Made by a program: the position numbers and the translations under genes. Below the pieces are notes generated by a model that searched no databases, was not told where the DNA came from, and saw only the letters and a list, made by a program, of their open reading frames with translations. From Flavobacteriales bacterium (GTDB lineage: Bacteria; Bacteroidota; Bacteroidia; Flavobacteriales_D; Parvicellaceae), in contig JAQXDK010000020.1 of the NCBI GenBank assembly GCA_029251405.1, positions 1 to 64,000 on the forward strand: DNA of 64,000 nucleotides. Direction: 5' to 3'. Shown here one piece after another: positions 343-4,788 of the stretch (within the stretch, counting starts at the first letter, position 1; each line of letters starts with the position of its first letter).

Positions 343-978
343 ATGTCATCAGTACTTAAATACCGCAGCCAATCTGAAATTTTTTTTCTTGATTATTTAC
401 CCGATGAATTTTTCATGAATTTGTCCGAAAAAGAAAGAATAAATTTTAGAGAACTCAGAGAGAATCATATGTTGATTGAAAAAAGTAAAGATCGTATCGC
501 GTCTTTAAAAAATGAAATTAAATTTAAGGTTGAACAGATAAAAAAAATTGAACAACAAATTGGGTCTCCCAATAAGCATTCATCTTATGAAGGTAAGCTT
601 TCAAAAGCAAAGTTTTTTCTCAAGGAATTAATTCAAACTCATCATTTTTCTATTTCTGTAGGATTGAGATATCATAACATAAAAACAAAAAATAAACCAA
701 AATTTTATTTAAGAGTTAAAGCTTATGATGGTACTTACAAAAATATTTATGTTGGAGGTGAAAATGATATTAAAAAAATATTGTTTAGTATTTATAATTC
801 TTCTTTTACTGATGTAAATATAAATGATCTTAAAGAAGAACTTAAAATACTCTATACGGTATATGTTAGATATTTTGTTTGGAAGAATAATTGGGATACG
901 TTCTTTTCTACTAAGCATACTTTAAAAAAAGTAGCATTATGGTCCGATCAAATAGGCACAGAAAAGTTTAGATGGTAA
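343..978 (+). CDS. Hypothetical protein with N-terminal coiled coil
   Basis: A soluble protein of 211 residues with no signal peptide or membrane span. Residues about 25-95 are charged and helical with heptad-like spacing, suggesting a coiled coil. Residues about 100-145 look like a compact beta-rich module: alternating aromatic and basic residues around GLRYHNIK, FYLRVKAYDGTYKNIYVGG. The remainder is helical and rich in aromatics. The beta module reminds me of small DNA-binding folds such as integrase arm-binding domains, but this is only a resemblance. The gene is followed after 4 nt by another small gene, so the two are probably co-transcribed, and it is preceded by a structured leader. 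Function unknown. Confidence 0.6.
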   Translation: MSSVLKYRSQSEIFFLDYLPDEFFMNLSEKERINFRELRENHMLIEKSKDRIASLKNEIKFKVEQIKKIEQQIGSPNKHSSYEGKLSKAKFFLKELIQTHHFSISVGLRYHNIKTKNKPKFYLRVKAYDGTYKNIYVGGENDIKKILFSIYNSSFTDVNINDLKEELKILYTVYVRYFVWKNNWDTFFSTKHTLKKVALWSDQIGTEKFRW

Positions 979-982
979 TAAT

Positions 983-1213
983 ATGAAGCAAATAAAATTA
1001 ATTTGGGATTTTAGAGGTGTATCAGCTTTTGAGACAGCCAAACATTTTGAAATTCATTTAAAGGAATTTCTTAATAAAGAAAAAATAACTGTTTTCGATT
1101 CGGAAACATTACAGGAATCCGACTTTTATTCTACAGTCTGTTTAATAATCGAAGAAAGTTATGTAAATACGGTCAAAATTGCATTAAAACCTGTCAGGGC
1201 TTTTTTAGTCTAG
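983..1213 (+). CDS. Small conserved-type hypothetical protein (76 residues)
   Basis: A 76-residue soluble protein opening MKQIKLIWDFRG, with HFEIHLKEF near residues 22-30 and ending in LKPVRAFLV. I recall short Bacteroidota proteins of about 80 residues with the same opening and a His-rich second segment, all uncharacterised. The pattern of a beta strand, a helix, and a C-terminal strand suggests a small alpha/beta fold. It begins 5 nt after the stop of the 211-residue gene and probably shares its transcript. No function can be assigned. Confidence 0.6.
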   Translation: MKQIKLIWDFRGVSAFETAKHFEIHLKEFLNKEKITVFDSETLQESDFYSTVCLIIEESYVNTVKIALKPVRAFLV

Positions 1214-1317
1214 TCTTTTCTATTGTTCATCATTATTTCAGATAATTACGTCAATTTACTATTGTTACTTATTTTATTTAATTGTAGTTTTTATATTTAA
1301 TTAAGTAAGCTATAATT

Positions 1318-2550
1318 ATGAGAAGTACTTCGTTTATTCAAACAGCTATTTTAATATCATTTTTACTTTTATTTAAGACTTCTAAAGCTCAATTACCTCC
1401 AATTATTGACACCTCATTCATTATTAATGAATGCTCAAAATTAGTTCCAGATCCTGATGTTTTAAGATTAAAAGAACATTTTTTTGACAGCTTTATTTTA
1501 GTTAACGATACCATTGGATATTTGAATCCAAATGGAACCCTACACCTTTTCGAAATTAATTTCTCTGATTCAACAACTGTTAAAAAATTAAGTATTAGTA
1601 AATACCATGGTTCCAATTTTAATAGACATTTATTTTATTACAATAATCAAATCTATAGTTTTGGTGGTTCTGGTTTGTTTAATTCTTTTGGTAAATTAAT
1701 TGAATTTGACTTTAATTCTGGAGAATGGTTTTTAAAAGAAATTACCAATCTTCCATTAAACTCTAAAGGGGTTATTTCTTCCTGGTTGTATGGTGATTAT
1801 ATTAAAGTACTCTTTTACGTAAATAATGAAAAGAATAATTTTTCTTTTGGAACTTTAGATTTGAAGAATTTTATTTATGAAGAGGAATTATCTTTCTATT
1901 CAGATAAAAATAATAGTCTGTATGCTCCAAGAGGTTTACTTAGTTATTGTAACTCCAGATATTCTGTTATGCAGTTTTATTACAGAAGATCTAAGAAAGC
2001 CGTTATTAAAGTTTTCGATAATAAAACAGGTGTGATTTCTGAAAATACTTTTTACAAGGATAGATTAAGTATAGATGGTATTTCTTATGCATATATTGTA
2101 GATAGCACCCTCTTTTACAGATCTGCAAATCTTACAATTGACTCTTTGAATTTATCACAAACTAGAAATTTTTCCAGTTTAAGTTATCCAAAATTATATG
2201 CTAATAAATATGAAGATAGTATGAGCAACAAAAGAGTTAATTATTTATTAGTAGGAGTAATAATAATATTGATCATGTCTTATTTTACATTTATTACTGT
2301 TAAAAAATCAAAACCTAATGGCTTGATAAATGGAACATTAGCAATAGAAAATAAATTAATTTTAAAAAAAGGTTTAAAGCTAAATAGAGAAGAATTAGAC
2401 CATTTATTAGAAATTACACATCTTAATCAAGATTCTTCTAAAACAATAAGAAGTAGACTTATTAATGAAATTAACGAAAATGGAAAAATCGAAATTTTAA
2501 GAGAAAGAAATCCAACAGATAAGAGGTTTTTTGATTATAAAATAACTTAG
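1318..2550 (+). CDS. Signal-peptide protein with propeller-like ectodomain, one membrane span and cytoplasmic tail
   Basis: 410 residues. An N-terminal signal peptide (about 1-24, ending FKTSKAQ) precedes about 280 beta-rich residues with repeated aromatic and glycine strands (YSFGGSGLFNSFGKL, YLNPNGTLHLFEI), consistent with a Kelch-like or other beta-propeller domain. A single membrane helix spans about 309-328 and is followed by basic residues (KKSK). This places the last 80 residues in the cytoplasm. That tail contains helices (REELDHLLEI, SSKTIRSRLINEIN) followed by a basic hairpin-like strand pair (KIEILRERNPTDKRFFDYKI), which resembles a winged helix. The domain order suggests a membrane-bound sensor with a cytoplasmic DNA-binding end; this is inference. 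It is followed 33 nt later by the CotH gene, so the two may be functionally linked. Confidence 0.6.
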   Translation: MRSTSFIQTAILISFLLLFKTSKAQLPPIIDTSFIINECSKLVPDPDVLRLKEHFFDSFILVNDTIGYLNPNGTLHLFEINFSDSTTVKKLSISKYHGSNFNRHLFYYNNQIYSFGGSGLFNSFGKLIEFDFNSGEWFLKEITNLPLNSKGVISSWLYGDYIKVLFYVNNEKNNFSFGTLDLKNFIYEEELSFYSDKNNSLYAPRGLLSYCNSRYSVMQFYYRRSKKAVIKVFDNKTGVISENTFYKDRLSIDGISYAYIVDSTLFYRSANLTIDSLNLSQTRNFSSLSYPKLYANKYEDSMSNKRVNYLLVGVIIILIMSYFTFITVKKSKPNGLINGTLAIENKLILKKGLKLNREELDHLLEITHLNQDSSKTIRSRLINEINENGKIEILRERNPTDKRFFDYKIT

Positions 2551-2583: not shown

Positions 2584-4788
2584 ATGAAAGTATATAAGAT
2601 CCTATTAAGTACTTTAATAATATTAATAATCTTTTTTACCCCATCATGCAATAACACAAGTTGCGATGATACTATTAATAAAGGAGTATTTATAAATGAA
2701 ATTTTAATTAATAATTCATGCATTTCCTTTGACTCAGACTACGGGAAATTTTCAGACTGGATTGAAGTTTACAATGGAAATCCTGAAAAGATTAATATTT
2801 CTGGTTGGGAGCTTCATGCGGTTAGTTCTAAAAAAAAAATCTCCTGGATTATTCCTTCAGAGACCGTTATTCAAGCGAAAGATTATCTCATAATTAGGGC
2901 AGATAAAAGAGATACTTTAAATCATGCTAGTTTTAAACTTAACAAGTCTACAAGAATTTTAAAGTTAGTGAATAAGGGTAGGACAGAAGATTCTCTAATA
3001 ATTCCAAAACAACAGTTCATCAATATTTCATATGGTAGGGAAAATAATGGAGGAAATAAATGGGGTTATTTCTACACCCCAAGTCCTGAAAAATGTAATT
3101 CTAGTCAACTAGCTGTAACTAATTTTAAAAGAAATGAAGAACCTGTATTTAGTTTAAATGCAGGTATTTATAAAAACACTATATCATTAGAAATCTCATC
3201 AAAGAATAGCAATGAAATTAGATATACAATCGACGGAAGTAGACCAAATAATTCCTCCATTAAGTATGAGCATCCGATTGTAATTAATGAAATGACCAGC
3301 GTAAGAGCAATTGTTATTAACGATTATAATTTACCAAGTAAAATTGTCTCTAATTCCTATTTTATAAATCCAATTGGAGATTTGCCTATAGTATCTCTTA
3401 CAACCGATAAAAGCTCCTTATGGGATGCAGAATACGGCATTTATGAAAACTCATTAATTAAAGAAAAAAGACTTGCGAATTTTGAATACTTTGAAAAAGG
3501 GAAGAGAGTCCTAAATCAGGAAATTGATTTAAGTATACATGGAAACGTAGCCAAAAATCATCCTCAAAAAGCCTTTAAAATCTCCACTAATAAAAATTAC
3601 GATGAGGATTTTTTTAACCACCAATTTTTTAACAATAAAAATGCAGATGCATTTAAATCTTTACTGCTTAGAGCTGGCGGACATGCAGATCATTTTTACA
3701 CACAATTTAGAGACGAACTTGGACAACACTTACATGTTGGATTTACCAAATTGGATTTTCAAGGAAGTAGACCAATAGTATTGTATCTAAATGGAAATTT
3801 CTGGGGTATCTATAATTTAAAAGAAAAGTTAAACGCTGATTATATTACATCGAATTATGACCTAAAAAAAGATGAATTTAGTATGCTCGAACAAGCATGG
3901 CAAGAAATTAAAACAGGCAAAAGAAAGGATTATATTGAGATGTTAAATTTCATTGATTCTTGTGAGAAAATAGATGAAAATTATAAAAAAGTAGAAACTT
4001 TAATGGACGTATATAATTTTATGGATTATAATATTTTACAAATTTATGTAGCTAATATAGATTGGCCTAACTGGAATATTAAATATTGGAAAGAAGACAG
4101 TGAATATGGAAAATGGAAATGGATAATTACTGATTTAGATTTTGGATTCGATGAAGGTGCTAGAGTGACCAAAAATATGATAGAATATGCTACATCTCCC
4201 ACACAAACAAGATCAACCAATCCTCCTGCTTCTACTCTTTTACTTCGAAAACTTTTTGAATTTGAGGATTTTAAAGATGAATTTATTCAGAGAATGGCAG
4301 TTTCTTTAAATGTAATTTATAATTCTGACAGAGTTGTTAATCGAATTGAGGAAGAAAAATCTTGGAGAAAAGAAATAATGCCGGAAGAAATTAAAAAATG
4401 GGGTGGAAAAGTATTTAAAAGTAAATGGGGAGATTTTGCAGTTGTTAAATCAATTAAGGAATGGGAAAAACACATTGAAAGAGTTAGAATTTTTGCTAGA
4501 AAAAGACCAGAAATAATTTTTAAAAATTTCAAAATACATTTTAATTTAAATTCTGAAATTACAGTATCAACTGAATCGAATGACGGGTTTGTATTTATTA
4601 ACTCCATTAAGATTCCAAAAGTTAATAATTCTGGAAAGTATTTTTCAGGAATTCCTTTAAGATTGGGTATCAAGGAAAAATTGGGCAAGAAATTTTCTCA
4701 CTGGAATGTCAATGGTGAGATTTTCAAAGAGAGAAATTTAATTGTAAATCTAGAATCAAATTCAACAATTATTGCAGTTTGTAATTAA
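2584..4788 (+). CDS. CotH kinase family lipoprotein with lamin-tail domain
   Basis: 734 residues, probably secreted and lipid-anchored: the signal peptide ends in a lipobox (TPSC, cysteine near residue 22). Domains in order: a lamin-tail domain at about 33-150 (FINEILINNS, DWIEVYN, ISGWEL); a chitobiase/hexosaminidase C-terminal-like module at about 190-260 (IRYTIDGSRPNNSS); and a CotH kinase domain at about 270-620. The CotH domain shows NLKEKLNADYI, WPNWNIKYWK and the DLDFGF motif typical of the family's metal-binding residues. The family comprises atypical protein kinases related to spore-coat CotH; in Bacteroidota most are uncharacterised envelope proteins. The start ATG at 2584 gives a complete lipoprotein signal. 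It lies just downstream of the membrane-anchored propeller gene. Confidence 0.85.
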   Translation: MKVYKILLSTLIILIIFFTPSCNNTSCDDTINKGVFINEILINNSCISFDSDYGKFSDWIEVYNGNPEKINISGWELHAVSSKKKISWIIPSETVIQAKDYLIIRADKRDTLNHASFKLNKSTRILKLVNKGRTEDSLIIPKQQFINISYGRENNGGNKWGYFYTPSPEKCNSSQLAVTNFKRNEEPVFSLNAGIYKNTISLEISSKNSNEIRYTIDGSRPNNSSIKYEHPIVINEMTSVRAIVINDYNLPSKIVSNSYFINPIGDLPIVSLTTDKSSLWDAEYGIYENSLIKEKRLANFEYFEKGKRVLNQEIDLSIHGNVAKNHPQKAFKISTNKNYDEDFFNHQFFNNKNADAFKSLLLRAGGHADHFYTQFRDELGQHLHVGFTKLDFQGSRPIVLYLNGNFWGIYNLKEKLNADYITSNYDLKKDEFSMLEQAWQEIKTGKRKDYIEMLNFIDSCEKIDENYKKVETLMDVYNFMDYNILQIYVANIDWPNWNIKYWKEDSEYGKWKWIITDLDFGFDEGARVTKNMIEYATSPTQTRSTNPPASTLLLRKLFEFEDFKDEFIQRMAVSLNVIYNSDRVVNRIEEEKSWRKEIMPEEIKKWGGKVFKSKWGDFAVVKSIKEWEKHIERVRIFARKRPEIIFKNFKIHFNLNSEITVSTESNDGFVFINSIKIPKVNNSGKYFSGIPLRLGIKEKLGKKFSHWNVNGEIFKERNLIVNLESNSTIIAVCN

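Follow-up and report, generated by a model that had tools for sequence, protein, structure and literature searches.

A putative membrane-anchored one-component regulator with a kelch-like propeller and a C-terminal winged helix in the Flavobacteriales

SusR of Bacteroides and the propeller-LuxR proteins of the Bacteroidota are membrane regulators that carry a C-terminal HTH domain. In the account given in PMC5936718, membrane-integrated proteins make up only 3% of the one-component systems, a class that is described there by the ToxR family, in which the DNA-binding domain is N-terminal and the sensor is C-terminal. Most HTCS, as presented in PMC3243724, combine a kinase, a receiver, and an AraC-type HTH with Reg_prop/YYY sensors of 700–900 aa.

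The protein analyzed here is encoded in a 64,000-nucleotide stretch of DNA from a Flavobacteriales bacterium (contig JAQXDK010000020.1), hereafter referred to as the window. Like ToxR and CadC, it would combine, in one protein with one span, an extracytoplasmic sensor and a cytoplasmic winged helix, with no phosphorelay, whereas the winged helix is predicted at the C-terminus and a kelch-like propeller, preceded by a signal peptide-like start, at the N-terminus. Because the DNA-binding domain of ToxR is N-terminal, the protein is not a member of the ToxR family, although it would work alike. With the HTCS it would share a periplasmic propeller sensor, a membrane-spanning architecture, and a DNA-binding domain among the cytoplasmic domains; in contrast to them, the 410-aa protein has no kinase, receiver, or AraC match in Pfam or NCBIfam. 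No description of a family with a kelch propeller and a winged-helix tail was found by title or abstract start among the open-access papers searched. The features of the locus are listed in Table 1.

Table 1. Features of the regulator locus, in window coordinates
Feature	Position	Strand	Details and basis
211-aa gene, upstream	343..978	+	kept in L065 (57%) and L066 (54%)
Small ORF of ~76 aa, upstream	983..1213	+	stop-to-stop ORF listing; similar ORF in L003
Candidate operator block, window clade	1244..1273	.	ends 44 bp before the start codon; L065 conservation
Regulator gene	1318..2550	+	410 aa; ORF and orthologues
Signal peptide-like N-terminus	1318..1389	+	residues 1-24; cleavage after TSKA by eye; model helix 3-18
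Extracytoplasmic kelch-like propeller	1393..2172	+	residues about 26-285; model, Foldseek, VIA, sub-threshold Pfam kelch
Single transmembrane span	2245..2301	+	residues 310-328 within helix 290-331; hydropathy, model
Winged-helix tail, cytoplasmic	2314..2547	+	residues 333-410; models, fold matches, conserved module
Third tail helix, predicted recognition helix	2437..2481	+	residues 374-388; holds K375 and R378
Wing hairpin	2494..2544	+	residues 393-409; R395, D401, R403, Y407
CotH/LTD lipoprotein gene	2584..4788	+	33 bp 3' of the regulator; Pfam CotH E 2.7e-33

The probability of 413 open codons arising by chance is ~1e-15 under an independent-base model, indicating that the ORF is real. A protein search of 60 relatives identified orthologues in 7 of the 10 same-genus genomes, including an interrupted copy in G010, and, in the rest of the family outside the genus, a single weak partial match (E 0.002). 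The identity of the orthologues ranges from 61% to 32%, with the frame and the sequence kept (alignment A5). A genome scan yielded 15 loci (11 intact, 2 cut by contig ends, and 2 interrupted), in assemblies titled Flavobacteriales or other Bacteroidetes, one of them being labelled Verrucomicrobiales. Both the span and the tail, which the initial annotation expected homologues to keep, are retained in all 11 intact loci. When the match is read in one frame, the interrupted copies at L078:444-1500 and L079:6001-7192 contain 39 and 26 stops, respectively, which suggests that the regulator has been lost in some lineages.

By eye, the protein starts with MRSTSF, followed by a hydrophobic stretch and a putative TSKA/Q cleavage site. 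The AlphaFold model of the full protein, built with 12 sequences (mean pLDDT 79, pTM 0.63), contains, in order, a beta-rich region (59–289), a long helix (290–331) that includes the span, helices at 336–348, 357–363, and 374–388, and strands at 393–397 and 405–409. The span has a mean hydropathy of 2.64 and is directly followed by KKSKP. The anatomy and coordinates read in the initial annotation, namely a signal peptide, a beta-rich region, one helix at about 309–328, and a tail of about 80 residues, were right, and the ORF with this anatomy is confirmed.

In the Foldseek search with the full model, the matches were solved propellers, kelch domains ranking first (best E 1.3e-6); BamB and WD40 propellers also appeared, and the TM-scores by query length were low, 0.22–0.36, among the matches listed. 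The best VIA match of the ectodomain was the LZTR1 kelch domain (Z 10.2, rmsd 6.1, 222 residues), with similar values below it. No Pfam kelch model exceeded its cut-off on the window protein (best, 17.7 bits vs 50), some homologues (L010, L082, and L089) exceed at least one Pfam kelch cut-off, and Reg_prop was absent from the Pfam scan of the window protein. The model and the kelch matches in Foldseek and VIA bear out the earlier proposal of an extracytoplasmic propeller.

For the tail, both predicted models exhibited three helices followed by a beta hairpin, which is the winged-helix order; the tail-only AlphaFold model (11 sequences, pLDDT 82) placed an additional short strand ahead of helix two. 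Transcription regulators, of which 9 have MarR in their titles, filled the top 14 places of the Foldseek search with the tail (best E 0.015, probability 0.99); E was nowhere below 0.001, and the lower-ranking matches included methyltransferases and a mitoribosome chain. In the VIA comparison, in which Z values below 8 can stem from a common arrangement, the tail matched PafBC (Z 6.9, rmsd 3.2, 74 aligned), SlyA with DNA (Z 5.9, rmsd 3.7, 68 aligned), and PhoB (Z 5.6, rmsd 5.0, 72 aligned), the last tied with MarR-type proteins (Z 5.2–5.9), and protein-binding winged helices of the COP9 signalosome (Z 6.7) and Nse1/3/4 (Z 6.7 and 6.4) scored equally high. These results provide good support for a predicted winged helix in the tail, as had been suspected from the order of its helices and hairpin; its closer kinship may lie with MarR-like or with PhoB-like proteins.

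At the sequence level, the tail module is unnamed, with no Pfam or NCBIfam family over the cut-off, and no HTH family of either database matched the window tail. Among 28 tails, weak Pfam matches were found to MarR (3 tails, best E 0.011), HTH_27 (2), and SarA/Rot (2), as well as to the non-HTH family COG5_N (2), with E values better than those of MarR. One profile search against the PDB gave two wing-only MarR-type matches (E 0.22 and 0.95); in one phmmer and two profile searches, no significant kinship to solved structures was obtained. A prolyl hydroxylase (E 0.013), which was among the best profile-search matches of the tail, was taken as chance. An OmpR-type kinship of the f41 and f54 tails, which by eye carry extra strands, was rejected, as neither these tails nor the window protein matched Trans_reg_C. 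With the MarR proteins, its Foldseek neighbours, the tail shares a wing with R...D-x-R and a conserved Arg, whereas the window tail does not match PF01047 (the three MarR matches among the tails are themselves sub-threshold), is membrane-tethered, and ends at the wing. MarR proteins carry flanking dimerization helices, which are absent from the tail.

All 38 aligned tails carry the wing residues D401 and R403, and conservation among them reaches 90% or more at R378 of the third helix, N386, R395, and Y407; K375 and R378 are invariant in all nine sequences of alignment A1. Conserved Arg and wing residues of this kind would be expected of a DNA-binding winged helix, conservation by itself being no proof of function. 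Residues 329–410 contain 17 K+R vs 12 D+E; the tail, which had been described as basic, is therefore moderately, but not strongly, so.

The tail recurs as a module beyond the genus. A profile of eight tails matched 38 of 399 genomes from the order, including 8 from the window's genus, and a profile of 38 tails matched 17 of the 395 genomes sampled phylum-wide, the window's own included. In all 55 proteins compared, the tail follows a hydrophobic stretch at a mean hydropathy of 1.3, and in 53 of them at 1.6; the set consists of 12 genus proteins, 27 of the 49 matches that the eight-tail profile gave outside the genus, and all 16 non-window matches of another tail search. The profile search across the Bacteroidota, which the initial annotation had suggested, thus reveals a conserved module with a preceding span.

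The regions in front of this module vary. The frames of the tail proteins range from ~170 to 1,220 aa, short interrupted or contig-edge copies aside. Kelch similarity, mostly below the cut-offs, was found by Pfam in 12 of 20 family proteins (by set, 3 of 10 at E 0.1 and 9 of 10 at E 0.5), and in the tail proteins of ~210 residues the ectodomain is short. Two tail proteins of ~1,000 residues (L059:709-4041 and L062:5017-7983) have sub-threshold FG-GAP and laminin G matches in their ectodomains. In the f8 genomes (L045:4184-6117, L046, L047, L049, L051, and L052), two tail proteins occur in tandem; the ectodomain of one (~395 aa) has the size of a propeller and that of the other (209–234 aa) is short, and the two may form a pair. 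In addition, the kelch protein at L010:1180-2550 of G043 has a tail that by eye resembles a more diverged winged helix and was not picked up by the tail profiles.

No conserved neighbour was found across the wider family, in which the clustering of flanking ORFs yielded local synteny only. In loci of f9 and f1 (L057, L060, L061, L064 and L068, L072, L076), metG is found adjacent to the tail gene or in its vicinity, a proximity that may be due to chance.

In the genus, a promoter alignment revealed a palindrome of the TAGGT-N4-TTAnGTAA-N4-ACCTA type at -100 to -111 in L068, L070, and L076. A matrix built from the sites of these loci was applied to 11 further genus loci, by comparing the best site within 250 bp before the start with overlapping 250-bp windows. 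In six held-out loci (L072, L067, L071, L069, L075, and L077), the promoter site surpassed all of the other windows (0 of 51 to 249 exceed it), and the sites of L067, L069, and L071 are nearly identical. The other five (the window, L065, L066, L073, and L074) had no standout site of this matrix. In total, 9 of the 14 genus loci carry the palindrome or a close relative in the regulator's own promoter, and the upstream genes differ, the surroundings varying by group (the metG side, a tRNA-like sequence recognized by eye, the 211-aa gene, and others).

The occurrence of the element in whole genomes was counted with the three-site pattern at up to three mismatches. Nine places were found in G001, two in G010, one each, at the regulator, in G003, G007, and G009, and none in G000, while a reversed control pattern gave none in all six genomes; G003, G007, and G009 are source genomes, the sites of which are perfect by construction. 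One of the nine places in G001 and both in G010 precede regulator copies, those in G010 being an interrupted copy (on C14) and a copy cut by the contig end. The matches in 13 further genomes had three mismatches and were about as frequent as those of the control; the exception was G008, in which a perfect site lies next to metG at the end of a contig, at the point where the regulator gene would start. In G005 and G006, two genomes of the genus in which no regulator was detected, only places with two or three mismatches were found. An L067-type pattern matched exactly in 3 of 7 genomes, by construction, and with one mismatch at L075 in G794 (control, 0); its remaining matches, in G794, G795, and G796, had three mismatches, and G797 had none. 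A refined pattern added places with two mismatches in G009 (C18:2587), G007 (C23:454), and G010 (C11:6186), one in each.

Outside the genus, none of 27 genes had a positive score in a scan of 31 genes for the operator, in which some start codons were estimated; the site of L062 ranked top in its own locus, with a score of -4.9. An operator of the same type for f8, f9, and the other homologues was rejected on this basis, and the palindromes in the f8 promoters have nothing in common.

Within the genus, the operator-like element in the gene's own promoter would be an autoregulation site, to which the tail would bind. Together with the winged-helix model, the element in the gene's own promoter lends support to the original proposal of a membrane-anchored regulator with a C-terminal DNA-binding domain.

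For the window and its closest relatives, a different promoter block was observed. The window, L065, and L066 share AATTACGTCAATTTACnnTTGTTACTTATT, which is distinct from the palindrome matrix. Between the window and L065, 28 of the 30 bases of the block are identical, as compared to 66% of the coding DNA, and the maximum in 200 random non-orthologous pairs of 160 bp was 22 of 30. The block occurs once each in its source genomes G000, G002, and G004 and is absent from G001 and G007 within three mismatches; a looser pattern added one three-mismatch match each in G000, inside a coding frame, and G002 (control, 0). Since the promoter conservation spans ~60 bp, part of the block may be core promoter. 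TTAC repeats spaced ~10 bp apart in the block may represent a diverged form of the palindromic operator.

In G001, the refined pattern detected 18 places with up to two mismatches (control, 2), to which the three-site pattern adds one, giving 19 distinct places. The refined pattern was trained on the sites of G001 itself, and therefore the nine places of the three-site pattern, with a control of 0, are the cleaner count. Downstream genes were checked for 17 of the 19 places; the two omitted are second sites in intergenic regions already represented. Of these, 14 are followed within 160 bp by the start of an ORF of 45 aa or more, at 50–108 bp in 13 cases and at 50–55 bp in 8, and no such ORF follows the other three. 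In addition to the regulator, the downstream genes encode three proteins with a T9SS type A sorting domain, two cupredoxins (one of which is among those three), a PA-domain protein, an FG-GAP protein, and an alpha/beta hydrolase. Four of the 10 target proteins scanned had no Pfam match, including a probable lipoprotein and the product of a gene that is Wzz-like by eye, has no NCBIfam name, and precedes a polysaccharide flippase-type gene. Under a crude rule, signal peptide-like starts were found in 11 of 14 G001 targets vs 35 of 68 background ORFs of the same stretches; since this enrichment is weak, the regulon reading rests on the position of the sites and the family content of the targets.

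In G009, sites are found at the regulator, between a divergent pair of glycosyltransferase and Polysacc_synt_2 genes, at distances of 146 and 152 bp, and between the end of a T9SS cargo gene and a short ORF. In both G001 and G009, a repeated intergenic promoter cassette with a copy of the palindrome is found beside T9SS cargo genes (L155:3345, 5483, and 8942; L156:1723; L157:1021 and 2793; L163:1840), and, since several of the G001 sites lie in this cassette, the sites are not all independent. At L119:3640-5627 in G001, downstream of a T9SS cargo gene whose promoter carries the palindrome, collagen-like repeats, GPQGPAGNDGAAG, were seen by eye in a frame that is broken over several ORFs.

We regard it as likely that the protein is a membrane-integrated one-component regulator with a reversed domain order, which autoregulates via the palindrome, with surface genes among its targets in some species, and whose tail would bind DNA. 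The anatomy, the predicted winged-helix fold, the conservation of the module, and the operator-like element at the gene's own promoter are results of the computation; the binding of the element by the tail, the sign of regulation, the dimerization, and the ligand are inferred. The protein would be arranged in the order of signal peptide, periplasmic kelch-like propeller, single span, and cytoplasmic winged helix. The propeller would read a ligand or the state of the envelope, and the span helix would pass the signal, probably as a change in dimerization or spacing, to paired winged helices that start ~8 residues inside the membrane. The tail would bind the palindromic operator in its own promoter, so that the regulator sets its own level, and, in G001 and G009, it would also bind ahead of genes for surface or secreted proteins and polysaccharide clusters. 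Because the tail begins ~8 residues inside the membrane, the bound promoter would be pulled to the membrane; such a drawing of the promoter to the membrane has been proposed for ToxR-type proteins.

Several other explanations have to be weighed against this regulator. The palindrome might belong to another regulator of surface genes, with the kelch-protein gene among its targets and the tail doing something else, as the many sites in G001 that precede T9SS cargo and other surface genes, part of them within the repeated cassette, would allow. This explanation is unlikely, however, because in G003, G007, and G008 the sole place with zero or one mismatch is the regulator promoter, or, in G008, the position where that promoter should be, because the two genomes with no detected regulator have only the two- or three-mismatch places, and because the element varies by regulator subclade, as expected if it follows the protein. 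That the winged helix serves for contacts with a protein, such as RNA polymerase or a soluble partner, and not with DNA, would agree with the protein-binding winged helices of the COP9 signalosome and Nse1/3/4 among the top fold matches and with the mild basicity of the tail, but it is very unlikely in view of the conserved Arg and Lys residues in the third helix and the wing, the 14 transcription regulators at the top of the Foldseek matches, and the operator-like element in the gene's own promoter.

Regulated proteolysis might also free the tail, which would then act on DNA in place of the anchored protein. The single span and the short linker to the tail in the model would suit cleavage and release, whereas for the analogous CadC the full-length protein is described as acting without cleavage (PMC5936718), and we consider release of the tail quite unlikely. 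As to the neighbouring CotH lipoprotein, which the initial annotation had proposed as a possible target to be checked for conservation, its position on the same strand, 33 bp downstream, makes co-transcription in the window species possible, and the autoregulated promoter could drive both genes. Among the loci L001–L096, the flanks of which cover ~1–6 kb and are in some cases cut by contig ends, CotH is nevertheless absent save in the window's own genome, and L066 retains the glmS side without CotH. CotH is therefore not a conserved partner and was rejected as such, and there is little probability that it is the dedicated target of the regulator.

The anchored, DNA-binding regulator may also stand for a wider group. 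With a chance that we put slightly below even, it represents a phylum-wide Bacteroidota family of reversed ToxR-like proteins with kelch or other sensors, which autoregulate and, in some Flavobacteriales, control a surface regulon of T9SS cargo and polysaccharide genes. The operator renders the claim testable by gel shift, and the architecture raises the question of how a DNA-binding domain so near the membrane finds its sites. If the reading is true, the reversed order, the modular sensors, and the readable operator would define a further Bacteroidota class of direct envelope-to-gene switch. The sensor could then be linked to the cargo of type IX secretion and to polysaccharide, and a single protein would act as a switch of the cell surface from the outside to the gene.
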